A stretch of DNA of 64,000 bases from Tissierellales bacterium (GTDB lineage: Bacteria > Bacillota > Clostridia > Tissierellales > Sedimentibacteraceae), in contig JAHDQO010000007.1 in NCBI GenBank assembly GCA_018433765.1, positions 1 through 64,000 of the forward strand, in the 5' to 3' direction. The first letter of the stretch is position 1. Each line of letters starts with the position of its first letter. The position numbers were made by a program, and so were the translations under genes. Shown piece after piece: positions 41,178 through 63,378 of this stretch. The notes beneath the pieces were generated by a model. The model saw only the letters and a program-made list of their open reading frames with translations, was not told the DNA's origin and ran no database searches.

Positions 41178-43070
41178 TTATATTGTTAATAACTTTTTAC
41201 CCAACAAAGTTAACATTCTAGCATCATCTTTCTTCTTTAAATCAAATGTATATTTACTTTTATAAACCATATAAAATATTAATCCATTTATAGGAATATT
41301 ATGTGGATTAGTTTCTTTAATATAGTTAATCTTCTCTTTTTTACTAATTTGAATTTTTATAGGTCTTTCTAATGGTTTTTCCATTAAATATAAATTATGA
41401 TTAAAAAACTCTACTCTAAATCCATTAAAATATCCTACTTTAATACCTTTTCTAAGAGCAAAATTGATTGCTTCTTCTTCGGTGTTAATTATTGGTTCAC
41501 CTTTATCATTAAGTGAGGTGTTGCATATAATTGGAACTCCTGTATCATCTTTAAATGCTTTGATAATTTTATATATGGTTAAATTTCCTTCTTCTCTATT
41601 AATTGTTTGTATTCTAGCACTATTATCTAAATGAAGAATTGCAGGTACTTTATTAAGCTGGTCTTCCTTTACTTTAAATGTATTTAACATAAATGGCGAA
41701 GCATATGCATCAATAAACCATTCATTAACATCTTCTTCTAAAACTATTGGAGCTACTGGTCTCCACCATTGCCTTTTTTTAATTTCGTTTATTTTATCCT
41801 TACTTTTTATATATCTAGGATCTGCAAGTATACTTCTATTACCTAATGCCCTTGGACCTATTTCTGATCTCCCATTAATCCAGATAATTGGTGAATATTT
41901 GATATCCTCAACAATATCTTTTAAATTAAATTCAGAAACACTTTTTATAAATTTATTATATTTTCCTTTTTTAAGTATTTCATAAATCATCTTTTTACAG
42001 TTCCCATAATATGGATTTTCAAGTTTAAAATTAAATTTATTTAATTTTTTATAAAAAGTATATAGTGCAATTCCTAATGATTGTCCACAATCACTAACAC
42101 ATGGTGGTGCTATGAAATCTTTAAATTTAAACTTATTCATTAAATAACTATTTGTAGGACAATTTAAAGCAAATCCACCTGCTACCGCAAAATATGTTTC
42201 AGATAAATTCAAATCATAATTTTGTAGAACTTTAGTGATATTTTGATCCATTATTTTCATAGACATTTTTTGTATTTCTTTCATTACCATACTTGCTTTA
42301 TTATCTTCTAAAGAAAATCTTGAATCAAATCCATTAAATAATATTCCTGCATCATCTTCTGTTAATTTTTCGACTTTTTTACATATATTATTAAAATATT
42401 CTATAGCCTCCGTAGAATTACTATCTTTAATTTCAATTACTATATCGTCATCTACATAAAGATTACTTGTACTTGCTGATGCAAGTGCCATTAATGATCC
42501 TTCTTGCATATTAAAGTAGGATTTAGCTAAAATCCAAAGCAAAGCTGGCGAAGAAATAGAAAAATACTTAATTTGCCCTTGACGCACTACACAACCTGAG
42601 TATTCATATTTACTCTTAGCATCAGCTTCTATAATATTATCTGAACCAAGATCTACCGACATTCCAATAATGTTTGAATTAAAAAATTTTTGAGTATCTA
42701 TCATTATTGCAGAAAACAAATGACATATACTGTGGTATGCATGTTTAGAAACTTCACCCTTTCGTAAGTAATATTCATTGTTTTTTTGTAATTCTGGAGT
42801 TCCCCATATATCATTCATATTTTCTATAGTTAAATCATATATACTAAGTAACTGATTTATTAAACTTATAGCCTGCTCAACATCATAAAAAGCCAAACTA
42901 TGTTTTTTAATTCCTGTTAATCGTTCAAGTTCCCAATAATGTATTAATTGAATATTCTCTCCATCTTTCTTCCAAAGTGAAATATTCTGATCATGTCTCT
43001 GTGAAACTTCATATACATTGCATAATTTATTTATTTCAATATATGCTGCAAGATAATATCCATCTTTCAT
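41178..43070 (-). CDS. O-carbamoyltransferase (NodU/CmcH/TobZ family), copy 1
   Basis: A 630-residue enzyme of the family that transfers a carbamoyl group from carbamoyl phosphate, via carbamoyl-AMP, to a hydroxyl of an antibiotic or sugar. The N-terminal Kae1-like domain has the metal motif H113-x3-H117 (YHSICHLFSA) and GMSVDLGSDNII. The C-terminal YrdC-like domain has NGRSEIGPRALGNRSIL, KKRQWWRPVAPIVL and CNTSLNDKGEPI. It starts MKDGYYLAAYIEIN. No ribosome site stands before this ATG; a short leader ORF (43076-43108) ends 5 bp upstream and may drive translation. It differs strongly from the second copy at 57066-58820. Confidence 0.92.
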   Translation of the reverse strand: MKDGYYLAAYIEINKLCNVYEVSQRHDQNISLWKKDGENIQLIHYWELERLTGIKKHSLAFYDVEQAISLINQLLSIYDLTIENMNDIWGTPELQKNNEYYLRKGEVSKHAYHSICHLFSAIMIDTQKFFNSNIIGMSVDLGSDNIIEADAKSKYEYSGCVVRQGQIKYFSISSPALLWILAKSYFNMQEGSLMALASASTSNLYVDDDIVIEIKDSNSTEAIEYFNNICKKVEKLTEDDAGILFNGFDSRFSLEDNKASMVMKEIQKMSMKIMDQNITKVLQNYDLNLSETYFAVAGGFALNCPTNSYLMNKFKFKDFIAPPCVSDCGQSLGIALYTFYKKLNKFNFKLENPYYGNCKKMIYEILKKGKYNKFIKSVSEFNLKDIVEDIKYSPIIWINGRSEIGPRALGNRSILADPRYIKSKDKINEIKKRQWWRPVAPIVLEEDVNEWFIDAYASPFMLNTFKVKEDQLNKVPAILHLDNSARIQTINREEGNLTIYKIIKAFKDDTGVPIICNTSLNDKGEPIINTEEEAINFALRKGIKVGYFNGFRVEFFNHNLYLMEKPLERPIKIQISKKEKINYIKETNPHNIPINGLIFYMVYKSKYTFDLKKKDDARMLTLLGKKLLTI

Positions 43071-43500: not shown

Positions 43501-44493
43501 TTAAGCTTTATTCAAAATAATAAACTCATGTAAATTATTTATTACTTCATCTACTATACTGCTGTCAACAATAAAACTAAAATATTGTTCATGAATTTCA
43601 TAATTTATGTAGCATATATTATTTTCTTCTAAATACTTTACTATTTTATTGTTGACTTTATAAGATATCTTTTTACCTATTAAACTAACTATAGATTTAC
43701 CTTTAATGTTTGAATCTTTTTTTGTTATTGATTGGACTCCTTCTTCATTACAATTTGAAATACAAGTACCCAAACAATTGTTAAAGGTAGATCGAATGTA
43801 AAGATTAGTACCTGCTTTTTGTGCTATTGTAACAGCTCTTGGATGTACTACTTTAGCTCCTTTCTCCGCTAATTTACAGCAGCTTTCATAGCTTATTTGT
43901 TCTATTAATTCTGCATCTTTAATCACATATGGGTCTGCAGTCATTACTCCTTCAACATCTGTATATATAATAATTTTTTCTGACTCTACTGCTGTTCCAA
44001 TAGCTACTGCTGATATATCACTACCTCCTCTTCCAAGCGTTGTAATATCACCAGTTTCTGATACACCTTGTGAACCTGCTATAATGGGAATATATCCTTC
44101 ATTTAAATATTTTTTTATTTTATTAGTGTCAACATATTTTACTTTAGCATCAAAATAATTGCTATTAGTAACTATTCCAGCTTGCTGTCCTGATAAACTC
44201 ACCGCTTTATATCCTCTACTAGTTAGTGTTGATGCTAATATTGATGCAGATATTATTTCTCCACAAGAATAAATCATATCCATTTCTCTTTTATTATTAG
44301 TTCCACTAATCCCTCTAACAAGATCCAATAATGTATCTGTAGCATATGCATCACCACTTCTTCCTATAGCTGATACTACAACTATTAATTTATATCCCAT
44401 ATTTATAGCTTTTATTATTTTTTTATAGACAAATTCTCTAGCTGTTTCTGTTGCTACTGATGTCCCACCAAATTTTTGAACAATAATTTTCAT
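43501..44493 (-). CDS. Aspartokinase, shortened regulatory region
   Basis: A 330-residue enzyme that phosphorylates aspartate to 4-phospho-aspartate, the entry to Asp-derived amino acids. The kinase domain (about 1-240) shows VQKFGGTSVA, GGSDISAVAIG, YTDVEGVMTADPYVI and the KGAKVVHPRAV element. Ordinary aspartokinases have about 400-450 residues with two ACT domains; here only about one ACT-like unit (about 260-330) remains. Lysine or threonine feedback may therefore be altered (inference). I use the ATG at 44493, giving the standard MKIIVQKFGGTSV start; the ATG at 44505 is directly against AAGGA. No lysine riboswitch is seen upstream. It may supply a building block to the peptide cluster. 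Confidence 0.88.
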   Translation of the reverse strand: MKIIVQKFGGTSVATETAREFVYKKIIKAINMGYKLIVVVSAIGRSGDAYATDTLLDLVRGISGTNNKREMDMIYSCGEIISASILASTLTSRGYKAVSLSGQQAGIVTNSNYFDAKVKYVDTNKIKKYLNEGYIPIIAGSQGVSETGDITTLGRGGSDISAVAIGTAVESEKIIIYTDVEGVMTADPYVIKDAELIEQISYESCCKLAEKGAKVVHPRAVTIAQKAGTNLYIRSTFNNCLGTCISNCNEEGVQSITKKDSNIKGKSIVSLIGKKISYKVNNKIVKYLEENNICYINYEIHEQYFSFIVDSSIVDEVINNLHEFIILNKA

Positions 44494-44763
44494 TTTTATT
44501 TTCATTCCTTGTATGACATATTTAGGTTAATAAAGGTAACCTGTAATCCTATTTGGGCTGCAATATTATGCATAACGGTAAATTCTATATCTTGACAGAA
44601 TTTTATTTTTATTATAGTATGAAATAAAAGGTTTATTTGTATATAATTAACAATATTCATCTATAAAAATGACATCTATTTAGCTATACCGTCTTTTTTG
44701 GTTTAGTAAATAACGGGAATAATTAATATATTTTGCTTATAATCTAATTGGAAGGAGTTAATG

Positions 44764-45822: not shown

Positions 45823-48800
45823 CTAGTGTCCACCCTTTTCCTTATAAATATACTCTGACATTTTAGTTATTGTCTTTGCTTCAAATAAATTTTCTATGTT
45901 AATGCTCGTATTATATAATTTTTGTATTCTAGAAAGCAACTGCATCATTTTCAGAGAATTGCCTCCCAGTTCAAAGAAATTATCATCTACACCCACTTTC
46001 TCAACTAAAAGTATATCCTGCCATATCTTAACCAGATTTTCTTCTATCTCATTACTTGGAGCCTTGTTTTCTCCCTGTTCTTCAAAAAGTTTATTTAATC
46101 CTTTATTCTCATCATGTGCAAAAATAGTATTATTAAAATTATATAAAAAAACTTGTTTTTTTTCATCTGTAAACATATCAATTTCAGATAATTTAATATT
46201 AGGGTTAGCCGTTATTATATTTAATATGTTTACAAAATGTTTTATAAAACCTTTTATAGTTTCTTCCTTAAAAAGCTTTGTACAATATTCAACTCTAAAG
46301 CATAGATTTTCATTATCATAAGCTTCAAGCATAATATCAAATTTAGAAATTCTGTTATCAAATCTATAAGGCGATAAGTAAAAATCTTTACAAGCTGTAA
46401 TTTCGGTTTTTACATTTTGTAATACAAGCATAGTATCAAATAGAGGGTTACGGCTTAAGTCTCTGTTAAGTTTTAACTTATCAACGAGTTTATCAAAAGG
46501 ATAATTTTGATTTTCGTAAGCTTTTATTGCATTTTCGCGTACACTTTTTAATAATTCACGAAAAGTAATATTACCTTTTGGATAATTCCTCATAGGAATA
46601 GTATTAACAAACATACCTATTACTTTTTCAATATCTGTATGAGGTCTTCCTATAATAGGCGAACCTACTATTATGTCTTCCTGTCCAGTATATTTATATA
46701 GTAATACATTATATGCAGCAAGTAATATCATATATAAGGTTGCATCGTTAATAGAAGCAAGTTTCCTCAATCTATCATCAAGATTATTTCCAGTTTCAAA
46801 ATAAATACTTCTTCCTTCATAATTCTTTACAACAGGTCTCTTATAATCTGTCGGCATATTAAGAACAGGTATTTTTTTACCCGAAATTTCTTCTAAATAT
46901 AGGTTTAGCCAGTAATCTTGCTGTTTTTTAAACAAATCACTATTACACATTTCATGCTGCCAAACTGTAAAATCTTTGTATTGAATTGGTAAAGGTTCTA
47001 ATGTTTCATTTTTATATAATTTCATAAGCTCATTAAAAAAGATATTAAGGGAAGTACCGTCTATTATAATATGATGTATATCAATAATCAGTAAATATCT
47101 ACCGTCTTCAAGTCCTATAAGTCCAGCTCTCATAAGAGGAACTTTACTTAGATCAAAAGGTCTAATGAATTTTCTAATTACACTGCTGGCTTCTTCTATG
47201 CTGTAGTTTCCAATATACTTAAGTTTTATATTAACATCCTTATAAATCTTCTGTACCAATTTATCATCAATAATAAGAAAAGATGTTCTAAGAGATTCAT
47301 GTCTTATAACAACCTTATTAAGAGCATCTTCTAATTTATTTTTATTAAATTTACCGTTGATATACATAATTATTGGCACATTATACGTTTTGTTTATACC
47401 CTCAAACTGACTTAATACGTATAGAGAGTTTTGCATTGGAGAAGTTATATAATAATCTTTTTCCTTAGCAGGTTTTATAGAAGAAAATTTTCTTGCTTTT
47501 GCTTTTGTTATATATTCAGATATTTGCTGTATAGTTGAAGTTTCAAATATCTGAGTAACTTTATAATCTACCTTGAATTCCTTTCTTACTCTCGAAGCAA
47601 ATACAATTGCTTTTATAGAGTTCCCCCCCAATTTAAAGAAATTATCTTTAATACCTATTTTATCTATTTTAAGTAACTCTCTCCATATTTTTATAAGACA
47701 TTTTTCAATATTATTAGTTGCCTTTACATAATTATATTTTTCATGTATGCTCTTTCTTGGGTCAGGAAGAACCTTTCTATCTATTTTACCATTAATTGTA
47801 AGAGGCAAGCTGTCCATATGTACGAAGAATGCTGGTATCATATAATCTGTAAGTTTATCTACTAAATATTCTCTAAGTTGTTTCGAGGTTAAATCTATGT
47901 CAGAAGTATAATAAGCACACAAGAATTTACTTTTATCATTATCTTCAAATGCAACTACACAAGCTTCTTTTACAGCTTTGTGTGAAGTTATATGATATTC
48001 TATTTCTCCAATCTCTATTCTATATCCTCTTATCTTTACTTGAAAATCCATCCTGCCCAAAAAATCAATGTTGCCATCCTCAAGAAGCCTAACTTTATCA
48101 CCGGTTTTATATAATTTTTTATTATTTTGCTTATCAATATCAAAACAATCATTAATAAATCTTTCTTCTGTAAGTTTTGGATTATTTAGATATCCTCTTG
48201 CAACACCATCTCCACCTACCCAGAGTTCTCCTGGTACTCCAATAGGCTGAAGTCTCCCATATTCATCTACTACATATGCAGTAGAATTAGCTATGGGTTT
48301 TCCTATAGGTATACTTTCGTTATACTGTCTGTCTATATTGAAAAAGGTGGAATAAGTAGTATTTTCTGTTGGTCCATAAGCGTTAATAATATTTACATCC
48401 TTACACTTATCTCTCACAATATTCATAATATCAGGTGTTAACGTATCGCCACCAACAAAGAGAGTTTTTAGTGAACTAAACATCTCCGGTTTTTGACTGG
48501 ATAATTGATTAAATAATGGTGTTGTAAGAAATAATATATCAATTTTGTTCCTAATTAATTCTATATTAAGCTTTTCAGGATCTATAATAGTAAATTCATC
48601 TGATAGATAGAGAGTAAGTCCATTTAATAAAATACCCCATATTTCAAATATAGATACATCAAAAACTGATGCGCAAGTCTTAAAACATCTGTCTCCTTCT
48701 TGAAACTTCATATAGTTCTGATTTTTAGTAAGCCTTACTACATTTTGATGTTCTATCATAACACCTTTAGGCATTCCTGTAGAACCAGATGTATATATAA

Positions 48801-50013
48801 TATTAGCAAGATTTTTTTTAGTCACTAATGGTTCTGCATAATAGGAATCTCTAAGATAAACAGCATCATCTTTAAGATCTATTATTGAAATATTATCTAT
48901 CAGCTTATTTGCTACTTCTTTATTATCAATTAATACAGCTTTTGCTAAACTGTCTTCTAACATGAATTTTACCCTGCTTTTAGGATATTTACAACTAATG
49001 GGAAGATACGCACCTCCAGCTTTAATTATAGCTAATGTACCCACAATCATTTCTATAGAAGTCTCTGCCATTATGCCAACTATATCATTAGGTTCTATCC
49101 CTTTTCTTATAAGATAAGCAGCAAGTTTGTCAGACTTTATATTTAACTCATTATATGAAAGCTTTTTATCCTTATATACAACAGCAGTAATTTCAGGAGT
49201 TTTTTTAACCTGTTCATCAAAAAGCTGACTAATAGATTTGTCTTCCGGATATTTTTTCTTGGTATTATTAAAGTTATAGAGTATCTGCTTTTTTTCCTCT
49301 ATCGTTAATATATCTATATCTGATAATTTTATATTAGGATTATTTATAACACTATTTAATATATTAATAAAATGCCCAATCATTCTCTCTATAGTTCGTT
49401 TTTTATATAATTTTATATTATAAGATAAACAACCTTTAATATGATTTTCTTCTATATTAAAATCAAAATTAATATCATATTTTGATAGATAAAGCTTTTT
49501 GCTTATATGAACATCTCTCATACTAACTACAACGTTAAATTTATTATAACCAATAATATCCATCATAGTATCATAAGATATATGAGAGTGATCACGTGCT
49601 TCTTTTACAGTACAGTTAGTATTTAATAAAAATTTATTAAAAGTCTGGTCTTTATCTGTTAAGCTTCTTATAGGGAGTATATTGAAAATTTTATCCTTAT
49701 TAATAAAAGGAGGAATACCTATTAATATATCTTTGTTGCCAGTATATCTATGTAAAAGCAGATTAACACATGCAAGTAGTATTACAAATACTTCCTTTGA
49801 TGATTCATCAGCTATAGTTCTTATCTTATTATTCAAAGTATTATTTAGTGTAAATTCAATTTTGCATAATCCATTCTCTGATGCTTTATTATTAGAATGA
49901 TACTTAGAATAATCTTTATAAACTGCACCCATTGCAATATCGCCAGACAACTTATTCTGCCAGTATTTTATCAAAGAATCTTTGGAATAAATATTATCAA
50001 AGTTATTACTCAC
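45823..50013 (-). CDS. Nonribosomal peptide synthetase: half-C, A, PCP, C, PCP (A domain deleted in last module)
   Basis: A 1396-residue synthetase. Order: a C-terminal-half condensation-like region (1-245, no HHxxxDG), adenylation domain (262-760; YTSGSTGMPKG, NAYGPTE, YKTGD, GYRIEIGEIE, NGKIDR), carrier protein with Ser799 (LGGNS), full condensation domain (853-1295; H980-H981...D985-G986), an A-domain stub (about 1300-1316, GLNKLFEEQ), then a carrier protein with Ser1353. By alignment to GrsA, A-domain pocket residues read D-V-F-L-F-G-A-T-Y; I assign no substrate. The last module must be loaded in trans. The start is GTG with AAAGGAG. It is the last gene of the operon as seen. Confidence 0.95.
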   Translation of the reverse strand: MSNNFDNIYSKDSLIKYWQNKLSGDIAMGAVYKDYSKYHSNNKASENGLCKIEFTLNNTLNNKIRTIADESSKEVFVILLACVNLLLHRYTGNKDILIGIPPFINKDKIFNILPIRSLTDKDQTFNKFLLNTNCTVKEARDHSHISYDTMMDIIGYNKFNVVVSMRDVHISKKLYLSKYDINFDFNIEENHIKGCLSYNIKLYKKRTIERMIGHFINILNSVINNPNIKLSDIDILTIEEKKQILYNFNNTKKKYPEDKSISQLFDEQVKKTPEITAVVYKDKKLSYNELNIKSDKLAAYLIRKGIEPNDIVGIMAETSIEMIVGTLAIIKAGGAYLPISCKYPKSRVKFMLEDSLAKAVLIDNKEVANKLIDNISIIDLKDDAVYLRDSYYAEPLVTKKNLANIIYTSGSTGMPKGVMIEHQNVVRLTKNQNYMKFQEGDRCFKTCASVFDVSIFEIWGILLNGLTLYLSDEFTIIDPEKLNIELIRNKIDILFLTTPLFNQLSSQKPEMFSSLKTLFVGGDTLTPDIMNIVRDKCKDVNIINAYGPTENTTYSTFFNIDRQYNESIPIGKPIANSTAYVVDEYGRLQPIGVPGELWVGGDGVARGYLNNPKLTEERFINDCFDIDKQNNKKLYKTGDKVRLLEDGNIDFLGRMDFQVKIRGYRIEIGEIEYHITSHKAVKEACVVAFEDNDKSKFLCAYYTSDIDLTSKQLREYLVDKLTDYMIPAFFVHMDSLPLTINGKIDRKVLPDPRKSIHEKYNYVKATNNIEKCLIKIWRELLKIDKIGIKDNFFKLGGNSIKAIVFASRVRKEFKVDYKVTQIFETSTIQQISEYITKAKARKFSSIKPAKEKDYYITSPMQNSLYVLSQFEGINKTYNVPIIMYINGKFNKNKLEDALNKVVIRHESLRTSFLIIDDKLVQKIYKDVNIKLKYIGNYSIEEASSVIRKFIRPFDLSKVPLMRAGLIGLEDGRYLLIIDIHHIIIDGTSLNIFFNELMKLYKNETLEPLPIQYKDFTVWQHEMCNSDLFKKQQDYWLNLYLEEISGKKIPVLNMPTDYKRPVVKNYEGRSIYFETGNNLDDRLRKLASINDATLYMILLAAYNVLLYKYTGQEDIIVGSPIIGRPHTDIEKVIGMFVNTIPMRNYPKGNITFRELLKSVRENAIKAYENQNYPFDKLVDKLKLNRDLSRNPLFDTMLVLQNVKTEITACKDFYLSPYRFDNRISKFDIMLEAYDNENLCFRVEYCTKLFKEETIKGFIKHFVNILNIITANPNIKLSEIDMFTDEKKQVFLYNFNNTIFAHDENKGLNKLFEEQGENKAPSNEIEENLVKIWQDILLVEKVGVDDNFFELGGNSLKMMQLLSRIQKLYNTSINIENLFEAKTITKMSEYIYKEKGGH

Positions 50014-50044: not shown

Positions 50045-53000
50045 CTAAAATTTAAACTTAACTTTATCAAAATCAATTATCTTAGTACCTAACTTATTTC
50101 CCTTTTTCTTTTCTTTTATAATATAGTCTGAGATAGCCCTAACTGTAGGTATTTTAAAGATTTCAACCATTGGAACCTGTATCCCTATTTCTTTATGTAT
50201 TTTTGATGCACCTACTATGATTTTTAAAGAATTTGCTCCTAAATTAAATAGATTTTCAGTTACACTATAATCCTCAATATTAAGAATTAATTTCCATATT
50301 TTGTAGATTTTCTCTTCCATTTCACTTTCAGGTTTTGTATAAACTTTTGCAATATATTCACTTTTGTCAAATTCAGGCAAAGCACTTCTATCAATCTTAC
50401 CATTTGGATTTAAAGGCAGTTTGTCTATCTTTATAAAGTATGAAGGTATCATATATGAAGGAAGCTCTCTTGAAATAATCGCTTTTAACTCATCTATGTT
50501 TAATACGTTATCATAGACTATATATGCACATAAATATTTGCTGCCTGCTGAATCTTCTCTATCTATGACAGCTACATCCTTAATTCCCTGTTTTCGTATA
50601 ATAACATTCTCGATTTCTTCAAGCTCTATTCTATAACCTCTCATTTTTACCTGCTGATCTATTCTGCCCCTAAATTCTATATTTCCATCATACAGCCATC
50701 TCGCCAGATCACCAGTTTTGTATATTTTATCAGGAACATACGAACACTTTATAAACCTTTCTTTAGTCATCTCTTTATCCTTATAATAACCTCTTCCTAC
50801 TCCTTCTCCTCCAATATATAACTCACCATCTATACCTGGAGGTAATAACTTCATATTTTTATCTAGTATATATAGGTTAACATTATATATAGGCTTTCCA
50901 ATAGGTACAGGCATAGAAAAATCAATATTTTTTGTTTCTAGTCTATAATAAGAAGCTATATCTGTACATTCTGTCGGACCATAAGTATTTACTATTTGGG
51001 TCAGAAAATTATCAGAACAAATCCAAGATTTAAGTTTTAACAGGTTTATAGATTCTCCGCCTAGAAAAACATATTTAAGTGAACTTAATTTTCTATATTT
51101 AGTATCCTCATTAAAATTAATTAAAGGGTAAAAAACGCCTGGCGCACAATTTATTAATGTTATTTTTTCCCTTTCAATAATATCTGACATTGTATTATAA
51201 TCATAAGACCTAGAAGGATATAGATATAATTTTCCGCCAGTAATTAGGTTAGCAAATAGGTTTTTCTGTGCTAAGTCAAAACTTACAGGAGCTATTAATA
51301 AATTGCAATCATTACTGTTTATGGTAAATTCTTTCACATACCAATTTATCATATTAACAAAGGAATGAGCTTTTATCATGACTCCTTTAGGTTTTCCAGT
51401 AGATCCAGATGTGTATAAAACATACATTAGTCTATTTGGATTATATGTTAGATTAAGATTATCTATTGGTAAAGAACTATTTTTAACAATATCATTTATA
51501 AATACAACCTCACTACTACAATTAACGACTTCTCTATACTCTTTGTGACTAAGAATCATAGAAACATTTGAATTATTAATAATATAATTAACTCTATCTT
51601 GCGGACAGCTTATATCTACAGGTAGATATGCCGCTCCAGCCTTAAGTATGCCGAGTATTCCAATAATCATTTCAAGACTTCTTTCAATGATAATTCCTAC
51701 TATAGTCCCAGCTCCTACTCCTTTTTGTTTCAAATACCATGCAACTTTATTAGCTCTTTTATTAAGTTCGTTAAAACTCAATCGTCCATGTTCTGATACA
51801 AGAGCTATACTATTAGGTGTTTTTTTTACCTGCTCCTCAATAAGTCTATTTAGCGAAATGTTTTTAGGATAATTCATTCTAGTATTATTTAAATCATTTA
51901 ATAACTTATCTTCCTCTTGTGTAGATAGGATATTAATATCAGATAGTCTTTTTTCAGGTTCTTTTATTACTTGAGAAATTATATTTATATAATGCTTTGC
52001 CATCTGTTCTATTCTTTCTTTTTTGAACAAAGAAGCATTATAATCTATGATTATTTCAATTTCACCTGCACTTGTAGTATATATATCAGTTTTTATTCCA
52101 AAAGAAGTAATGTATGCATTAATATTATTATAATTAGTTAATTTCACCCCACCAAAATTAGCCTGATTTTCTTCTAATTCTTTTGAACCTAGAAATGTAA
52201 CCATTGTATCAAATATTGGATTGAACGAATTTTTTCTGATCAATGACATATGCTCAATCATTTTATCAAAAGGTAAATCTTGATTATTATATGCCCCCAT
52301 TATACGTTCATTAACATGGTCTATATATTCAATAAATGTTTTTTGGAAATTAAGCTTTACTCTTATGGGCAATATATTAATAAAAACCCCTATAATATTC
52401 TGAAGTCCTTTATAGTTTCTACCTGGAGAAACAGAACCTACTATAATATCATTCTGACCACTGTACTTTGCAAGTAACAATACATAGATAGAAAATAATA
52501 AACTGTATAGTGTCATATTATGCTTTCTTATATATTTTCTAACAATGCTATTTAACCCATTAGTTAGTTCCTTATTAATTATAAAAATAATCTCTTCTCC
52601 TTTTGGGTCATTGAGAATATTTTCAGGAAAATCAGGAGACAGATTTAATATAGGTATTTCATCTTTTAATATGCTCTGCCAGTATTTTTTCTGTGAGTCA
52701 AAATATCCTGTTTCTAGTAGTTTATCGTACCATACTGAATAATCTCTGTAACGTATATCTTCTTTTGGTAGAGGCTTTCCCTCATATGTATTAACTATTT
52801 CCTTAAAAAGTATACCAGTAGAGATACCATCACAGATAATATGATGAATAACAAATATAAAAAGATATCTATCCCCCTCTGTCTTAATTAGACAAGAGTT
52901 AGCTAAAGGTGGCTTGCTTAGGTCAAAAGGTTTTATTAAATTATGTATTAGATCTTTCTCTTTATCAAATTTTGTTTCAATATATTCTAATTGAAAATCC

Positions 53001-53287
53001 ACTTTCTTATGTATTATCGAAACCGGTTGTTTATCTATTATTCTAAAAGATGTTCTAAATGCTTCATGTTTTTTTACAACAGTTTCTACAGCCACCTTGA
53101 ATCTTTCTATATCAAGGTTTCCTTCTATAACCTTTATTATTGGAATATTATATCCTATATCCCCCTCTATATTATTTATAAATATACCTTTCTGTGATGG
53201 AGATAAAGGATAATATTCTCTATCTTCTACAGGTTTTATATTGGTAATTAAAGATAATTTACCAGTACTATCTTTATCAATACTCAT
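50045..53287 (-). CDS. Nonribosomal peptide synthetase module: C-A-PCP
   Basis: A 1080-residue single module. Condensation domain (24-465; YPLSPSQKGIF, H148-H149...D153-G154, FVINILPIR region) is followed by an adenylation domain (475-975; LYTSGSTGKPKG, NTYGPTE, YKTGDLARW, GYRIELEEIE, NGKIDRSALP) and a carrier protein with Ser1020 in LGANS. Pocket residues aligned to GrsA read D-L-K-N-F-G-T-D-I; the Asp that binds the alpha-amino group is present, and I make no substrate call. The condensation domain resembles LCL-type starters. GAGGAG precedes the ATG. It sits 31 bp before the next synthetase gene and 5 bp after the thioesterase gene. Confidence 0.95.
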   Translation of the reverse strand: MSIDKDSTGKLSLITNIKPVEDREYYPLSPSQKGIFINNIEGDIGYNIPIIKVIEGNLDIERFKVAVETVVKKHEAFRTSFRIIDKQPVSIIHKKVDFQLEYIETKFDKEKDLIHNLIKPFDLSKPPLANSCLIKTEGDRYLFIFVIHHIICDGISTGILFKEIVNTYEGKPLPKEDIRYRDYSVWYDKLLETGYFDSQKKYWQSILKDEIPILNLSPDFPENILNDPKGEEIIFIINKELTNGLNSIVRKYIRKHNMTLYSLLFSIYVLLLAKYSGQNDIIVGSVSPGRNYKGLQNIIGVFINILPIRVKLNFQKTFIEYIDHVNERIMGAYNNQDLPFDKMIEHMSLIRKNSFNPIFDTMVTFLGSKELEENQANFGGVKLTNYNNINAYITSFGIKTDIYTTSAGEIEIIIDYNASLFKKERIEQMAKHYINIISQVIKEPEKRLSDINILSTQEEDKLLNDLNNTRMNYPKNISLNRLIEEQVKKTPNSIALVSEHGRLSFNELNKRANKVAWYLKQKGVGAGTIVGIIIERSLEMIIGILGILKAGAAYLPVDISCPQDRVNYIINNSNVSMILSHKEYREVVNCSSEVVFINDIVKNSSLPIDNLNLTYNPNRLMYVLYTSGSTGKPKGVMIKAHSFVNMINWYVKEFTINSNDCNLLIAPVSFDLAQKNLFANLITGGKLYLYPSRSYDYNTMSDIIEREKITLINCAPGVFYPLINFNEDTKYRKLSSLKYVFLGGESINLLKLKSWICSDNFLTQIVNTYGPTECTDIASYYRLETKNIDFSMPVPIGKPIYNVNLYILDKNMKLLPPGIDGELYIGGEGVGRGYYKDKEMTKERFIKCSYVPDKIYKTGDLARWLYDGNIEFRGRIDQQVKMRGYRIELEEIENVIIRKQGIKDVAVIDREDSAGSKYLCAYIVYDNVLNIDELKAIISRELPSYMIPSYFIKIDKLPLNPNGKIDRSALPEFDKSEYIAKVYTKPESEMEEKIYKIWKLILNIEDYSVTENLFNLGANSLKIIVGASKIHKEIGIQVPMVEIFKIPTVRAISDYIIKEKKKGNKLGTKIIDFDKVKFKF

Positions 53288-53292
53288 TATAC

Positions 53293-54813
53293 TTAACTCC
53301 TCTCGTAAATTGCTTTACTAAAATAATCAGCAAATTTTTTCACCTGAGGCTGCTGAAATATTGAATAATGATCACCATCTATAACATAACTGTGCGTTTT
53401 TCTATTACAGTAATGCTGCCATAGATTTTCATCTAAATCAGACTGTACACTTACCTTAAATAAATGAACAGGACATTGTAATTTTGATTTAGGTCTGTAA
53501 TATTCTCTTGCTCTTCCGTATGTTCTTCCAGTATTAATATAATAGAGAATAGATTTTATATTATTTTGTGCATATTGGGGTACCATTTTTAGAAGATCTT
53601 CATGAATTAGCTTTTTAACTATTTCTAGTTTGTCATTATTATTATTTATATAATCAATAAAAGTTTTGTAAATCACTTTTACATCATGCATTGAATTTAT
53701 TTTATCCTTTATCTCCCCATTATCTAATAAAGACATAAGCATTTGTTTCTCAAACTTGACATTGAATTCTCTATTTAAATTTAAAAGAAAATTAAATTCT
53801 TGAGGTGCTGATGAATCAATTAAACCTAGGAAATTAACGCTATCACCGTTTTTTTCAAGAAGAAGAGCAATTTCAAATGCTATAGTACCTCCTATACTCC
53901 AACCAGCAAGATAATATGGAGCATCTTGATCAATATTTTTAATTAATTTAAAGTATTTAGCAGCAACATCTTCTATTGTTATATTTTCTGGACAATAATT
54001 TTCAATCTTATCTGCTCTTATTCCCCAATAGTTTATATCCTTTCTAAGGTAACTAGCAAACTCTACATATGCTCCAATATCTCCACTGCCATCATGTATT
54101 AAAAATAGATTTTCATTAGTAGTTCCTTTTTTAAGCAGTATAGGTTCATTGTTTTCTTTTTTTTGTTTTATTGCATTAATACAATCCGACTTTTTTATAG
54201 TAACATCTATATCTTGTAATAAATGCTTATCTTGCTTAATAAATTTTTCAATATGAGAGAGCTTAGCATCAGGGAACATTAAAGCTGTACTTAAAAAAGA
54301 TATTAATAATTTAATTAATTTTATTATTATATTGCTATCTACTAAAAAGTCATTGAATTTAAAAGTACAATTTATTCTTTTGTTATCTATATTAAAATTA
54401 ATAATTTTATCAGTTTCGCATATATAATATGTACTTTGATTATGAATACTATCAAAAATTACTATACAATCTGATTTTATATTATCTTTGTTTCTACTTT
54501 CTGATATAATATTGTCCTGATTATAAGTATTACTCACAATATATTTAATGTTATTAAGATATTCTTTATATGTAAGATCTTTTTTTATATCTATGTTGAA
54601 TATATGTACATTATTTTTCCCCCCATTATCTTGATATGCAGTAGGACTTTTTATATCTATTTTTGTTTTTCCATTAAACATAGATATAACAAAAGCTGTA
54701 CCAGATAGAAGAACTAAATATACAGCTAATTGTGAATTTCCGCATATATTAAGAATATTTTTCGCAACAACATTTGGTAACATAGAGATAATTGATGTAT
54801 TTAATTCATCCAC
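53293..54813 (-). CDS. Half-condensation domain fused to a type I thioesterase
   Basis: A 506-residue protein. Residues about 1-205 resemble the C-terminal half of a condensation domain (like residues 1-245 of the 1396-residue synthetase) and lack HHxxxDG. Residues about 225-506 form an alpha/beta-hydrolase thioesterase with GWSIGG (nucleophile Ser306), Asp333 (LIDSSAP) and His482 (GDHYSIF). The thioesterase probably releases or cyclises the peptide, acting in trans because it is not attached to a carrier protein. The half-C may dock it to the last module (inference). The start is GTG, with AAAGGAG 11 bp upstream. Confidence 0.85.
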   Translation of the reverse strand: MDELNTSIISMLPNVVAKNILNICGNSQLAVYLVLLSGTAFVISMFNGKTKIDIKSPTAYQDNGGKNNVHIFNIDIKKDLTYKEYLNNIKYIVSNTYNQDNIISESRNKDNIKSDCIVIFDSIHNQSTYYICETDKIINFNIDNKRINCTFKFNDFLVDSNIIIKLIKLLISFLSTALMFPDAKLSHIEKFIKQDKHLLQDIDVTIKKSDCINAIKQKKENNEPILLKKGTTNENLFLIHDGSGDIGAYVEFASYLRKDINYWGIRADKIENYCPENITIEDVAAKYFKLIKNIDQDAPYYLAGWSIGGTIAFEIALLLEKNGDSVNFLGLIDSSAPQEFNFLLNLNREFNVKFEKQMLMSLLDNGEIKDKINSMHDVKVIYKTFIDYINNNNDKLEIVKKLIHEDLLKMVPQYAQNNIKSILYYINTGRTYGRAREYYRPKSKLQCPVHLFKVSVQSDLDENLWQHYCNRKTHSYVIDGDHYSIFQQPQVKKFADYFSKAIYERS

Positions 54814-57065: not shown

Positions 57066-58820
57066 CTATATAAAAGAATACAGCCTTCCATCTAATTTAG
57101 TCTCAACAGCTGTATTTGATTTAGCTATAATTGCTTTTATAAGAGTAAACGAATTGTTTGATCTTTCAATTAAAAAATTTCCCAGTACTAAGCAATCAAT
57201 TTTTGTATTAATAAAACAGGTCAATGCATTAAGAGGACTCATTACTATTGGTTCTCCTCTTACATTGAAGGATGTATTAAGAATTATAGGACATCCTGTA
57301 ATTCTATCAAATTCCCGTATTAATCTTGTATACATAGGATTAGTATATTCATTCACAGTCTGAATTCTTGAAGAACTATCAACATGAGTTATAGCTGGCA
57401 GATTGAGATTAGATATTACATTACATGTTAAGAGCATATAAGGTGATGAAATATCTATATCAAAATGTTCCCTCACTTTATCCTCAAGAACTGAAGGTGC
57501 AAATGGTCTAAATGCCTCCCTCTTTTTAACCATAGAGTTAATTTTATCCTTCATCGAACTGACTCTTGGATCTGCAAGTATTGATCTATTACCAAGAGCT
57601 CTTGGACCAAATTCCATTTTTCCTTGAAACCAAGCAATCACTTTACCCTCTGCTAATTTTTTTGCAACAACTTTTATCAGTTCATTACTTGTATATTCAT
57701 AATCACTATATATAATTGAGGTAGCATCTAGTAAATTTTTGATTTCTCTAGAGGAATACTCTGGTCCAAGATATACATGTTCTAATTTTTTGACTTTTAA
57801 CTCATTTTGTGCAATCTTAGAATAAGCGATAGCTGCAGCACCTAAAGCTGCTCCTGAATCATTTGGAGCTGGTTGTATGAATACTCTTTTAAAAGGACCA
57901 TCTCTTAATATTCGGCTGTTAGCTACACAATTAAGTACAACGCCACCTGCCATACAAAGATTTTCCAACTTAGTTTTTTCGTATAAATAAACAGCTTTTT
58001 CTAACATAACCTCTTCAAGTACATATTGCAGACTTCTAGCGATATCTTTGTGAAATTGGGATATCTTAGATTCTGGAATACGCTCAGACTCATCAAAAAG
58101 CTTTATAAGTTCATCTGAATACATTTTCTTGCCAGTTATATAATCAAAGTATTTCATATTAAGTGTATATTGACCATTATCCCCCATATGTATTAGTTTT
58201 CTTATTTTATCAACGTATATAGGATTTCCATATGGAGCAAGTCCCATTACCTTGTATTCTCCATTATTTACCCGAAAACCTAAGTAACTAGTTATAGTAC
58301 TATAAAGAAGCCCTATAGAATCAGGGAAATCAACTGATTTGAATAATTTTATACCCTCTTTATTACCATATCCATAAGTGGTTGTAGCCCATTCTCCTAC
58401 ACTATCAACAGTTAAAATAGCTGCTTTATCAAATCCTGAATAACAGAAACTGCTTGCTGCATGTGATAGATGATGATTAATAAATACAATTGGTCCATCA
58501 TATCCTAAAATTTCTCTTATTTCTCTATTAGGTCTATATGGATCCATGATATTTTTTAATTCCCCTTTTTCTATATCATAACCTGACCATAACTGACGTG
58601 ACAGCTTATTAATAGGTTTTTCATAATAAGCAATTAAATCAACATTAGTTATGGATAGTCCTGCACTTTTTAAACAATATTTAAAAGCATGATAAGGCAT
58701 TGACCTATCATGCTTAATTCTGGTAAATCTTTCTTCTTGTGCAGCAGCTGTTATTCTACCATCCTGCATTATACAGCAAGCTGAATCATGATATAAAGCT
58801 GAAATTCCAATAATATTCAT
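57066..58820 (-). CDS. O-carbamoyltransferase (NodU/CmcH/TobZ family), copy 2
   Basis: A 584-residue carbamoyltransferase. The Kae1-like half begins MNIIGISALYHDSACCIMQDG and has NHHLSHAASSF (H116-x3-H120) and LTVDSVGEWATTTYG. The YrdC-like half has FQGKMEFGPRALGNRSIL, KKREAFRPFAPSVL and NTSFNVRGEPIV. It matches the standard antibiotic-modifying type (CmcH, TobZ, NovN), which carbamoylates a hydroxyl group using carbamoyl phosphate and ATP. Placed inside the synthetase operon, it most likely decorates the peptide or a precursor. TTGAGGT precedes the ATG. Confidence 0.95.
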   Translation of the reverse strand: MNIIGISALYHDSACCIMQDGRITAAAQEERFTRIKHDRSMPYHAFKYCLKSAGLSITNVDLIAYYEKPINKLSRQLWSGYDIEKGELKNIMDPYRPNREIREILGYDGPIVFINHHLSHAASSFCYSGFDKAAILTVDSVGEWATTTYGYGNKEGIKLFKSVDFPDSIGLLYSTITSYLGFRVNNGEYKVMGLAPYGNPIYVDKIRKLIHMGDNGQYTLNMKYFDYITGKKMYSDELIKLFDESERIPESKISQFHKDIARSLQYVLEEVMLEKAVYLYEKTKLENLCMAGGVVLNCVANSRILRDGPFKRVFIQPAPNDSGAALGAAAIAYSKIAQNELKVKKLEHVYLGPEYSSREIKNLLDATSIIYSDYEYTSNELIKVVAKKLAEGKVIAWFQGKMEFGPRALGNRSILADPRVSSMKDKINSMVKKREAFRPFAPSVLEDKVREHFDIDISSPYMLLTCNVISNLNLPAITHVDSSSRIQTVNEYTNPMYTRLIREFDRITGCPIILNTSFNVRGEPIVMSPLNALTCFINTKIDCLVLGNFLIERSNNSFTLIKAIIAKSNTAVETKLDGRLYSFI

Positions 58821-58857: not shown

Positions 58858-59883
58858 CTATTTATTAAATATTAAATTCTCATATACTTTATATTGCAAA
58901 TCAACAATCTTTTTTTCCTGTGTATAGATTTGTTTTAGAATACTTACAGCACTTTGCAATTTTCTATCTATGTTCTGACCAAAATATTTGAAGTTAAAAA
59001 TGGATAAACGGACAAAGGTCCAGTCATTAATTATACCTTTAATTATTGTCAATAATTCTTCATTGCCCACATAATGATAAAATCTATATTGCTTTATTTT
59101 CTTGGCTGTTATTATTTCAGTTATAATCTCAAGTATTTCGTCCACATATTTTTTAAGTAAATTTTGATCTTTTATGATTTTAATCAATCGATCTACCAAA
59201 ATAAAGTAATTGTTCATACTCTCTAATATCAGAGTTCTATTTTCCAGATACATGTTAATGTATCTTAATAAATAATAATTTTTATTATAGTTCTTTTTAA
59301 CTGGAGTATTATCATATTTATAGAACTTAATATATACAGGCGCTTTTAAATAACCATAATGTTGTTTATACCCATCACTTGCTTTTTTTATATCAGTATA
59401 CGAGATTATTTCATGTTTATATCTAAGACTGTTCTTATTTTTATGTTCTAATATATTAAAAGTGCTTGTTAAATTGTCATATCCATATACAAGAAGACCG
59501 TGATCCAAATGTACTAAATTGTATAAATCTTTTCTTATAGATTCATAATAACAGTCTACTTTTACTATAATAGGCATATTGTCATTAAGTGATACTAGAA
59601 TATCGTCTATAATATTGTTGCATTTCATACACTCACAACAATTAATGCCTAATTCATTAAGTAATTGCTTAACTGATTGTCCACTAATATACTCTATTTC
59701 TGTTTGCAACCAAGTATCAGATGAAGTTTTGTAAAGTATTAAATCGTTTAATATAAAGCTATCAATTTTATGGTTAAAGAATTTTAGTACTGAAAATAAT
59801 GAACCATAAAAGCAATCTTTATAAAAAACATCATTAAAAGGTTCAATTCTATTTAGTTTTTTTGAATTTACAGATTTATTCAT
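58858..59883 (-). CDS. BtrH-like acyltransferase/cysteine-protease-fold protein
   Basis: A 341-residue protein whose first 200 residues match the BtrH N-terminal pattern: Cys24 in FYKDCFYGSLFSVL, IIVKVDCYYESI and H125/H128 in NLVHLDHGLLVYGYD. In butirosin biosynthesis BtrH moves an aminoacyl chain from a carrier protein to an amine acceptor. Here it sits next to the A-PCP gene, so it may offload that carrier. The C-terminal third is helical and unrecognised. A Cys-rich CCECMKC lies at 82-88. The ATG overlaps the A-PCP stop by 8 bp (ATGAATAA), implying translational coupling. Confidence 0.75.
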   Translation of the reverse strand: MNKSVNSKKLNRIEPFNDVFYKDCFYGSLFSVLKFFNHKIDSFILNDLILYKTSSDTWLQTEIEYISGQSVKQLLNELGINCCECMKCNNIIDDILVSLNDNMPIIVKVDCYYESIRKDLYNLVHLDHGLLVYGYDNLTSTFNILEHKNKNSLRYKHEIISYTDIKKASDGYKQHYGYLKAPVYIKFYKYDNTPVKKNYNKNYYLLRYINMYLENRTLILESMNNYFILVDRLIKIIKDQNLLKKYVDEILEIITEIITAKKIKQYRFYHYVGNEELLTIIKGIINDWTFVRLSIFNFKYFGQNIDRKLQSAVSILKQIYTQEKKIVDLQYKVYENLIFNK

Positions 59884-61726
59884 AGAGGTTGTTCTTTCTT
59901 ACATATTGTAATAATTTGTTAACGGTATTATAAGTATATATGTCATCTAACTTCAAATTTACACCAATTTTATTTAGGAATATTAATAATCTTGCAGCTG
60001 TTATAGAATTACCGCCAATATCAAAAAAATCATCATTAATGTCAAAATAATCTAAGTTAAGAATCTCCTTCCATATTTCTATTATTTTATCTTCTAATTT
60101 ATTTTTTTTTATAATATTTTTATAGTTTATTTTTAAAGTCTGTAATTTCTTCTTGTCTACTTTGTTGTTAATAGTAAGAGGTAGTTTCTTAACCAAAATA
60201 AAATGTTGTGGAATCATATAATCTGGAAGTCTATTTAATAAAAAAGTTCTAAGTTTGCTAATATTAATATTATTCGTTAAAAAGCAAATAAGTACATTTT
60301 CATCAAATTTATCTTTCTTATTAATTACTACTGCTTCTTCAATTCCATTAAACATTAAAATATTCTTCTCAACTTCACATATTTCTACTCTACTTCCCCT
60401 AATTTTAATTTGATTATCTAGCCTACCAAAATAAGCTATATTTCCATCACTGCATAATGCACCAATGTCTCCTGTCCTATAGATAGTATCATTTTCAATA
60501 ATATTACTTATAAATTTATCTCTTGTAAGCTTAGGCTTATTAAAATAGCCCTTAGCTAAACTTATTCCGCTTATACATATTTCACCTTTTTGTCCTATAC
60601 CGCATAACTCATTATTTTCATTTAGTATATAAACTTTGGTATTCCAGATAGGCTTTCCAATAGAAATTGACTCCAAGTTATCGCCTAGATTCTTATCAAT
60701 TATAAAACATGTTGCATATACTGCTGATTCTGTCATCCCGTATATATTCGCTATTTTAGTTATATGCAACAAACTGTTAAATTTCTTTGCAATAGAAACT
60801 GTAATATGTTCTCCTCCATTAAATATCCATTTAAGATTGGGTAATGGATTAGTAATGTTATTGATTTCAATAAAATCTAAAAATACTTTCAACATAGATG
60901 GTACAAACTGGGTAATGGCTATATTATTGTCTTTTAGAAATAGATATAATTTTTTTGGATCTTTAACTTCATAATCATTTATAATACATATTTTTGCACC
61001 ATTCAATAAGGGAAAAAAAATTTCCCATATTGAATCCGTAAAACTTATTGAAGTCTTAAATGCAATATTATCTTCTCTATCTATATGAAATTTTTCACTC
61101 ATCCAAAACAAAGTATTAAGGATAGCCTTATGGGTTACCATAACACCCTTTGGCTTGCCAGTTGTACCAGACGTATATAAAATATAAGCGAGATCATCAT
61201 CACACACAATATCTTTATTTCTATAAATGAAATTTCTACCATATTGATTATAAGAAGATTCATATTGAACAAAAGAATCCATTACCTGTTTCATATTTAA
61301 TATTGTTTTATCATCCATAACAATATCTTTTTGTAATTCATATTGAAATGAAGGAACTATAATAGTTTTGCATAAAGTATCGTCTATAATATATTTTATT
61401 CTCAGTTTTGGATATGACATATCTATAGGAACATATATACCACCACACTTTAGTATTGCAACAATACATATTATAAGTTCTATACTTCTATCAAGTATAA
61501 CTGCAACAGGATACCCTGGTTCTATTCCACTTTCTAGTAATATATTAGCAATATAATCAGATTTTTTATCTAAGTCACCGTAAGTTAACTTCCTAGTATA
61601 ATCAATTACTGCAATATCTGAAGGATTGATCTTAGATTGATTTCTAATTAGTTCATGGATTGTTACATTTTCAAGATATTTTTTTTCTGTATTATTTAGC
61701 TGTTTATATGCCTCTAGTATTCTCAT
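59876..61726 (-). CDS. Stand-alone A-PCP synthetase with unusual substrate pocket
   Basis: A 616-residue two-domain protein: adenylation (about 15-530; ILYTSGTTGKPKGV, NIYGMTES, YRTGD, NNKVDKKKL) and carrier protein with Ser574 in IGGNS. At the A4 motif it reads FTDSIWE, so the position equal to GrsA Asp235 is Thr230 and the next is Asp231. Pocket residues aligned to GrsA read T-D-W-Q-F-G-I-V-Y. Loss of Asp235 with Asp at 236 recalls beta-alanine-type codes (V-D-...), so the substrate may be a beta-amino acid or other non-alpha acid (inference). The ATG at 61726 is 4 bp after the aminotransferase stop. It may load the A-less module or start the chain. Confidence 0.92.
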   Translation of the reverse strand: MRILEAYKQLNNTEKKYLENVTIHELIRNQSKINPSDIAVIDYTRKLTYGDLDKKSDYIANILLESGIEPGYPVAVILDRSIELIICIVAILKCGGIYVPIDMSYPKLRIKYIIDDTLCKTIIVPSFQYELQKDIVMDDKTILNMKQVMDSFVQYESSYNQYGRNFIYRNKDIVCDDDLAYILYTSGTTGKPKGVMVTHKAILNTLFWMSEKFHIDREDNIAFKTSISFTDSIWEIFFPLLNGAKICIINDYEVKDPKKLYLFLKDNNIAITQFVPSMLKVFLDFIEINNITNPLPNLKWIFNGGEHITVSIAKKFNSLLHITKIANIYGMTESAVYATCFIIDKNLGDNLESISIGKPIWNTKVYILNENNELCGIGQKGEICISGISLAKGYFNKPKLTRDKFISNIIENDTIYRTGDIGALCSDGNIAYFGRLDNQIKIRGSRVEICEVEKNILMFNGIEEAVVINKKDKFDENVLICFLTNNINISKLRTFLLNRLPDYMIPQHFILVKKLPLTINNKVDKKKLQTLKINYKNIIKKNKLEDKIIEIWKEILNLDYFDINDDFFDIGGNSITAARLLIFLNKIGVNLKLDDIYTYNTVNKLLQYVRKNNLYE

Positions 61727-61730
61727 ACTT

Positions 61731-62906
61731 TCAAGCAACTCCCTTGTTAAAGAAGTCTACCAATAAATCAATTCCTTCTTTATATCTGCTGGATGAGAAT
61801 GAAAGTCTTAAAGTAGTAGGTAAACCAAAATCAGATCCAGGAACTGTTGCTACACGTTTTGTTTTTATTAAATCTTTTGCAAGCTCTAAACTGCTTTTAT
61901 AATTATACTTGTCCATATAATCTTTACACTCAAGAGTTATATAGAATCCACCTTTTGAATATATTGCATTTACTAAGTTTACTTCTCTAAACTTCTTAAT
62001 CGTATAATCACGTCTATCTTTATATAGATTAACTAAATAATCAATTTCACTTGGATAATCAATTGCAGTTAATGCACCAAATTGTACTATCGGATCAACT
62101 GTTAGTAAAGTATGATGCTGTATAACTGTTAATGGTTCAACTAATTCATCAGGAACAATACAGTATCCTACTCTTTTAGTATACATTCTGTATGCTTTTG
62201 AGAAAGAATTAGTTGTTATGAAAACTGATTTAGTGTTTTTAAGCTGCATAACTGATTTGCATTCTTCATCAAAATATGTATTACAATATATTTCATCATT
62301 AATAATAACTGCTTTACCATTTACAATACTGTCCATTTTATATAGTTCTTCATCAGTTAGTATATTACCAAGTGGGTTACCTGGTGTATTAATGACAACA
62401 ATCTTAGTTTTATCAGTAAAATTATCCTTGAATGATTCCATGTCAAGTCTTTGAGTTTCTGGATTAATTTTATAATATTTGACAGTTGCTCCTGACAAAA
62501 GAGCAGAAAATTTATATAATGAATAATATGGAATTGGTAGTAATACCTCATCCCCTTTTTTGGACAATAAATAAAATAAGTTCCTGAATATTGTACTTGT
62601 ACCAATACTTATAATAAAATTATTAGGACTTATTTTTACAGAATACTTCTCAGCATAATATGAAGAAAGTTTTCCTTTTAACTCAGGCAGTCCAGCTGGA
62701 AATACAAGTCTGCTTTTACTAGGATCATCTATTTTTTCCTGCATACTTTTAATTATTGCAGGATGCAATGGTAATTCGGATTTCCCTAAAGTCATTCGTA
62801 TAACTTTATTTTCAGGATTTTTCTTATCTAAATCGTAAGCCATCTGGTCTATAACAAACATAAGAAATTTATTATCAAAAAAATTAATATCAGTTCTTAA
62901 TTTCAT
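61731..62906 (-). CDS. Class I/II PLP aminotransferase
   Basis: A 391-residue fold-type I aminotransferase of the aspartate transaminase group. It shows IRMTLGKSELPLHPAI, the PLP phosphate region ISIGTSTIFRN, INTPGNPLGNI and the Schiff-base lysine in TNSFSKAYRMYTKRVGY. In the cluster it probably makes or adjusts an amino acid building block from a keto acid. AAAGGAGG precedes the ATG. It is followed 4 bp later by the A-PCP gene, whose substrate it may help make. Confidence 0.92.
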   Translation of the reverse strand: MKLRTDINFFDNKFLMFVIDQMAYDLDKKNPENKVIRMTLGKSELPLHPAIIKSMQEKIDDPSKSRLVFPAGLPELKGKLSSYYAEKYSVKISPNNFIISIGTSTIFRNLFYLLSKKGDEVLLPIPYYSLYKFSALLSGATVKYYKINPETQRLDMESFKDNFTDKTKIVVINTPGNPLGNILTDEELYKMDSIVNGKAVIINDEIYCNTYFDEECKSVMQLKNTKSVFITTNSFSKAYRMYTKRVGYCIVPDELVEPLTVIQHHTLLTVDPIVQFGALTAIDYPSEIDYLVNLYKDRRDYTIKKFREVNLVNAIYSKGGFYITLECKDYMDKYNYKSSLELAKDLIKTKRVATVPGSDFGLPTTLRLSFSSSRYKEGIDLLVDFFNKGVA

Positions 62907-62949: not shown

Positions 62950-63378
62950 TTAACTAACTATTTGTAATAACTCAATAATATTTTTATCCGGATCCTCATA
63001 AAAAATTATTTTTGAATTACCAAACTTAGGAGTCTTAACAGTAAAAATTTCACTTATTGGCTCAACTCCTTTTTCTGAAAGCATTTTAATTTTTCTATCC
63101 AGTGAATTTACTAGAATTGTAAATCTAGTTGGACCTTGTATATTAACAGCACTTTTTAAAATATTTTTATCCTTATATTCCATAAGCTCTATCATTGAAC
63201 CTGTATATGCTGTTTTAAGAAGTATTAATCTATAAGATTTATAAACACTATCAGATACAAATTTAACTAAATTACCACTTATAATAGTATCTTCTACTAG
63301 TTCTAAACCTAGCTTATTGACATAGAATTCTATTGATTTTTCCATTGAGTTAACAAACATATCAACATGCAGTAGCAT
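62950..63378 (-). CDS. VOC (glyoxalase/bleomycin resistance) family protein
   Basis: A 142-residue protein with two beta-alpha-beta-beta-beta units. It reads LHVDMFVNSMEKSIEFYVNKLGLELVEDT at the start and IIFYEDPDKNIIELLQ at the end. VOC proteins include glyoxalases, dioxygenases, isomerases and drug-sequestering resistance proteins. The candidate metal residues are H4 and the final Glu in IELLQ. In this cluster it could be a tailoring enzyme or a self-resistance protein. GGAGG precedes the ATG. Confidence 0.88.
   Translation of the reverse strand: MLLHVDMFVNSMEKSIEFYVNKLGLELVEDTIISGNLVKFVSDSVYKSYRLILLKTAYTGSMIELMEYKDKNILKSAVNIQGPTRFTILVNSLDRKIKMLSEKGVEPISEIFTVKTPKFGNSKIIFYEDPDKNIIELLQIVS

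Follow-up and report, generated by a model that had tools for sequence, protein, structure and literature searches.

A nonribosomal peptide synthetase module from a Tissierellales bacterium with a readable trace of adenylation-domain loss and candidate parts for loading in trans

Nonribosomal peptide synthetase (NRPS) modules in which a condensation (C) domain is followed directly by a carrier protein (PCP or T), with no adenylation (A) domain of their own, are already established for syringomycin, WS9326A and capreomycin. Syringomycin assembly employs SyrB1 (A–T), the shuttle SyrC and SyrE, whose last module is C–T–TE (PMC8949500). Cystobactamid involves CysH/CysB/CysK (PMC7966384) and legonindolizidine LgnB/LgnA/LgnD (PMC8748450), and in all three systems α/β-hydrolase-type proteins carry the aminoacyl group from A–T proteins to A-less modules (PMC8949500, PMC7966384, PMC8748450). 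For WS9326A, an A-less C–PCP lies in cal19, and Cal22 and Cal23 are A–PCP didomains (PMC7539972).

The locus described here lies in a window of 64,000 nucleotides (bases 1–64000 of a 333-kb contig), and its gene run continues to about 81 kb. As in syringomycin, an A-less C–PCP ends a synthetase, a stand-alone A–PCP is present in the cluster and hydrolases are candidate shuttles; here, however, the thioesterase (TE) is on a separate protein, no halogenase was seen, and the start of an A domain is left at the junction. With WS9326A our locus shares two stand-alone A–PCPs plus an A-less C–PCP, yet the A-less module of that system sits mid-line, and type II thioesterases are the candidate shuttles there (PMC8748450). 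Capreomycin CmnI and viomycin VioI (PMC12400406) likewise exemplify a module without an A domain that is loaded by another A domain, which is what we propose here, but CmnI, a stand-alone protein from a distinct family, is loaded by CmnA-A1, and no hydrolase shuttle is described for it (PMC12400406). New are this particular member, the deletion edge that can still be read in it and the cassette around it: an NRPS module that keeps a legible trace of A-domain loss, with candidate parts for trans loading nearby.

The synthetase starts with GTG and comprises 1396 residues in the order partial C–A–PCP–C–PCP (Table 1). Pfam recognised Condensation twice (the full domain at residues 853–1288), AMP-binding at 265–609, AMP-binding_C at 670–743 and PP-binding twice (best at 1327–1389), and found no A domain between the second C domain and the second PCP. 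The second module is therefore a member of the A-less C–PCP class, with a complete C domain bearing HHxxxDG and then a PCP bearing GGxS. Behind its C domain come NFNNTIFAHDENKGLNKLFEEQ, the four residues GENK, APSNEIEENLVKIW and finally the carrier with Ser1353; the junction itself reads QVFLYNFNNTIFAHDENKGLNKLFEEQ–GENK–APSNEIEENLVKIWQDILLVEKVGVDDNFFELGGNSLK. Both the sequence and Pfam bear out the succession of C domain, A-domain start, linker and carrier that the first-pass annotation had claimed, and had placed correctly. The module was also called the last one there, which holds for the 1396-residue protein and not necessarily for the assembly line; the thioesterase belongs to a separate 506-residue protein.

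In two intact C–A–PCP modules of another synthetase of the same genome (C13), LFEEQ and the EAPRNEIEE-type linker are 485 and 495 residues apart, compared with 4 here, so that about 480–490 residues are absent from the A-less module. These distances imply that the deletion took the A core together with the A C-terminal subdomain and spared the first A-domain residues. Since A-domain boundary motifs are matched at both ends, and in frame, the junction is not a product of chance. Such loss of a whole A domain is unlike the A-domain exchanges reported to be frequent, in which both the C–A linker and the C-terminal subdomain of A stay in place (PMC8097286).

Comparison with 53 C domains collected from sampled loci points in the same direction. 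Each of the 11 nearest in these loci (45–51% identity) has an A domain behind it; the closest belong to G227, G268, G287, G135 and on (47–51%). That the nearest C domains all sit in C–A–PCP modules indicates that the A domain was lost in the 1396-residue protein. Descent of its second module from an ordinary C–A–PCP module by in-frame deletion is thus supported at the sequence level, and the previously claimed in-frame loss of about 480 A-domain residues agrees with the junction, with the intact modules and with a C-domain tree. The homologue comparison proposed alongside that claim could be made in part: no homologue of the whole protein was found, and it is the closest C domains that sit in A-containing modules.

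Table 1. Features of the A-less module, its synthetase and the gene cluster (window positions unless a contig coordinate is given)
Feature	Position	Strand	Basis
1396-aa NRPS, partial C–A–PCP–C–PCP	45823..50013	-	Pfam, own HMM
Carrier protein (PP-binding), Ser1353 in GGNSLK; would need another A domain for loading	45847..46035	-	Pfam, sequence
A–PCP linker motif SNEIEENLVKIW, immediately past the junction	46021..46056	-	sequence
Junction residues GENK, in place of about 485-495 residues of intact modules	46063..46074	-	intact-module comparison
A-domain start left at the deletion, GLNKLFEEQ, residues 1305-1313	46075..46101	-	sequence
Full C domain of the A-less module, residues 853-1288, HHIIIDG intact	46150..47457	-	Pfam
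First-module A domain, signature DVFFFGATYK; possible cis/iterative donor	47785..49221	-	Pfam, GrsA alignment
N-terminal partial C of the 1396-aa protein, C-terminal half only (HMM positions 183-440 of 440)	49270..49971	-	own HMM
C–A–PCP protein (1080 aa), signature DLKNFGTDIK	50045..53287	-	Pfam, GrsA alignment
Degenerate partial C + thioesterase protein (506 aa)	53293..54813	-	Pfam, own HMM
Carbamoyltransferase, same gene run	57066..58820	-	Pfam
BtrH_N-like protein of the conserved cassette; Pfam match below cut-off	58858..59883	-	Pfam
Stand-alone A–PCP (620 aa), signature TDWQFGIVYK, Thr for Asp at position 235	59876..61738	-	Pfam, GrsA alignment
PLP aminotransferase of the conserved cassette	61731..62906	-	Pfam
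Glyoxalase/VOC-like protein of the cassette	62950..63378	-	profile search
789-aa protein: degenerate partial C, A domain, PCP; signature DAQDLGVVDK	C7:69039–71408 (= L011:7040-9409)		beyond window
α/β-hydrolase, 662 aa	C7:65339–67327	-	beyond window
α/β-hydrolase, 655 aa	C7:76242–78209	-	beyond window

The cluster contains four A domains, five PCPs and two full C domains, and the C–PCP of the 1396-residue protein is its only acceptor without an A domain of its own. The 620- and 789-residue A–PCPs both lack a working C domain. A-domain signatures were read on an alignment to GrsA, for which the ten code residues were the expected ones; a survey assigns the code of the 789-residue protein to Glu and Gln (PMC12283262). 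The Thr at GrsA position 235 of the 620-residue protein (TDWQFGI-YK) is kept in four genomes, and it may point to a substrate outside the common alpha-amino acids. Three proteins (45823-50013, 53293-54813 and L011:7040-9409) begin with a C domain reduced to its C-terminal half, strongly degenerate in two of them. Beyond the window, the gene run further encodes three radical SAM proteins, two of them of the B12 type, along with two VOC-like proteins and one S9-type hydrolase-like protein. Besides, the window holds two NodU-type carbamoyltransferases (41178-43070 and 57066-58820), the former adjoined by an aspartokinase-like gene (43501-44505, 334 residues; the family model has 405). The carbamoyltransferase was not found in the other 26 genomes of the family, none of 391 genomes of the class gave a real match to the 699-residue protein of the cluster, and plasmid records returned generic NRPS matches only, at under 60% identity.

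Part of this cluster recurs as a cassette in other Clostridia. A profile of the cluster's hydrolases matched Ruminiclostridium papyrosolvens C7, Anaerosporobacter faecicola and [Clostridium] polysaccharolyticum, and among 398 genomes of the phylum it matched nothing else at E 1e-30; a search for related loci with the BtrH-like protein found nothing. Common to the cassettes, in similar order, are the Glu/Gln A–PCP, a B12 radical SAM protein, the Cys-type hydrolase, a VOC protein, an aminotransferase, the TDWQFG A–PCP and the BtrH-like protein, and the codes of both A–PCPs are kept in all four genomes save for one position of TDWQFGI-YK. No C–PCP was seen in the stretch read beside the cassette in R. 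papyrosolvens C7 and [C.] polysaccharolyticum, that of A. faecicola is adjoined by other NRPS and PKS genes, and no counterparts of the 1080-, 506-, 699- and 1396-residue proteins as a set were seen at the other cassette loci.

SyrC and CmaE use a Cys nucleophile. Both hydrolases of our cluster have an α/β-hydrolase fold (Pfam PF00561, 2e-9 and 2e-8; Foldseek E 2.6e-14), with a Cys at the strand–helix turn of the predicted fold; Cys468, Asp609 and His637 are invariant in six homologues. Foldseek returned generic hydrolases only, the closest solved structures being ordinary esterases, and TE-like Dieckmann cyclases likewise work with a Cys triad (PMC10956176). We liken the pair to the SyrC, CmaE and CysB shuttles by mechanism only and regard aminoacyl transfer as putative. 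We had considered that the second hydrolase might be specific to the A-less module, and dropped this because [C.] polysaccharolyticum also has two, with no C–PCP adjoining. In that species, one Cys-type α/β-hydrolase (L057:9884-11914) ends in a carrier-like domain, as read from its sequence.

How might the A-less carrier be charged? Loading in trans, either by a free A–PCP or by the module's own neighbour as first proposed, is a reasonable expectation given its close precedents (PMC8949500, PMC7539972, PMC12400406); the 789-residue A–PCP and both hydrolases lie beyond the stretch on which that proposal was based. In the route we favour, by analogy with the known systems, one of the cluster's stand-alone A–PCPs would activate an amino acid, one of the Cys-type hydrolases, working in the manner of SyrC, CmaE or CysB, would move the aminoacyl group to Ser1353 of the C–PCP, and the intact C domain would join it to the residue carried by the first module. 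The likelier donor would be the 789-residue A–PCP, since Glu and Gln have the alpha-amine that the acceptor needs. Two A–PCPs without a working C domain alongside a single unfed acceptor speak for this shuttle route, in which we place roughly even confidence. On the other hand, the two cassette genomes with no C–PCP adjoining imply that the hydrolases have another job there, which may be theirs here as well, and for the same reason the donor A domain for the carrier is to be read as a candidate.

Among the alternatives, the serious rival is that the first-module A domain charges both carriers of the A–PCP–C–PCP arrangement, in cis or iteratively, so that the same residue would enter twice and no shuttle be needed. 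An A–T–C–T order is also present in the mannopeptimycin synthetase (C-A-T-E-C-A-T-C-T-E), where a single A domain is said to supply both carriers that follow it; unlike for our locus, no stand-alone A–PCPs are mentioned for it (PMC8949500). Loading of CmnI by CmnA-A1 (PMC12400406) is in line with this as well. Within the set tested, moreover, the best-scoring relative of the A-less PCP is the other carrier of the 1396-residue synthetase (32/72 identical), by a trivial margin; yet the A-less PCP is no less similar to the C13 carriers (37/75 and 35/75), and PCP similarity does not separate the candidate donors. Charging by the first module would also leave both stand-alone A–PCPs without an acceptor; we consider it possible, if on the unlikely side. 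The CmnA-A1/CmnI pair equally documents direct trans loading by the A domain of another module (PMC12400406), so a stand-alone A domain might charge the C–PCP without any shuttle, the hydrolases then serving the cassette only. Their presence where no C–PCP was seen would fit, but the stand-alone A domains here carry PCPs of their own, a layout that uses shuttles in the known cases, and we deem direct loading improbable.

Two further readings concern the deletion itself. The C–PCP could be a relic, left uncharged and bypassed by the chain, or the protein could be decaying: deletion is a common first step of decay, and no relative of the entire synthetase turned up that would show retention. However, the reading frame is uninterrupted, both HHIIIDG and GGNSLK are preserved, and AlphaFold predicts the C domain at good confidence (pLDDT mostly 80–96), with about 55 for the PCP. 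The integrity of both domains argues for use of the module, and we judge a relic quite improbable. Lastly, NRPS genes are repetitive, and an assembly collapse between similar A-domain stretches might have removed the A domain from the contig only. A collapse would need near-identical flanks. When the 1-kb stretch around the junction was searched against the whole genome, the matches elsewhere covered either the C side or the PCP side, at 64–81% identity, besides a 29-base hit at 93%; none spanned the junction and there was no near-identical repeat. The residues flanking the junction on its two sides are not alike either. From these sequence comparisons, a collapse appears very unlikely.

Coming back to loading in trans by the cassette, we may speculate on its product. 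The two A–PCPs, the PhpK-like and the second B12 radical SAM proteins, the aminotransferase, the VOC and BtrH-like proteins and the Cys-type hydrolase might together make an unusual amino acid on a carrier. They would then form a portable building-block unit, connected to an NRPS when a single A-domain deletion turned the neighbouring module into an acceptor for that amino acid. We regard this broader proposal as rather doubtful. If loading from the cassette were demonstrated, it would show how an assembly line can be adapted to a modified amino acid by deleting an A domain and not by exchanging one, which would be useful for NRPS engineering. The PhpK-like radical SAM protein is conserved in the four clostridial cassettes; ours (L011:5347-6987, i.e. 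C7:67346-68986), a B12 radical SAM protein, exceeds the cut-off of the PhpK P-methyltransferase family TIGR04479 (683.5 bits, cut-off 600). On its account we considered a phosphinothricin-type phosphinate cluster, which is unlikely as PEP mutase (TIGR02320, cut-off 319.55) had no match over the cut-off in the four cassette genomes, with one 136-bit match in this genome.

A maximum-likelihood tree of C domains included five A-less C–PCPs, namely the one described here, that of C13 in the same genome, and those of G336, G249 and G274. Well-supported branches force at least five state changes to account for these five clostridial modules, so A-domain loss is recurrent in Clostridia, in a small sample whose labels are motif patterns that may miss some cases or count degenerate A motifs. 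The C domain of the A-less C13 module pairs with the one just upstream in its own protein (support 100/100), suggesting, from sequence, a module duplication followed by A-domain loss, and the linker of the A-less G336 module still contains a motif A8-like stretch (EFLGRIDSEVKKRGSKIE). The C13 synthetase (G000, L013:4149-12812) has 2887 residues in the order C-A-T-C-A-T-C-T-TE. A type II thioesterase-like gene (L012:15780-16541) lies near it, in a layout like that of the LgnA/WS20 cases.
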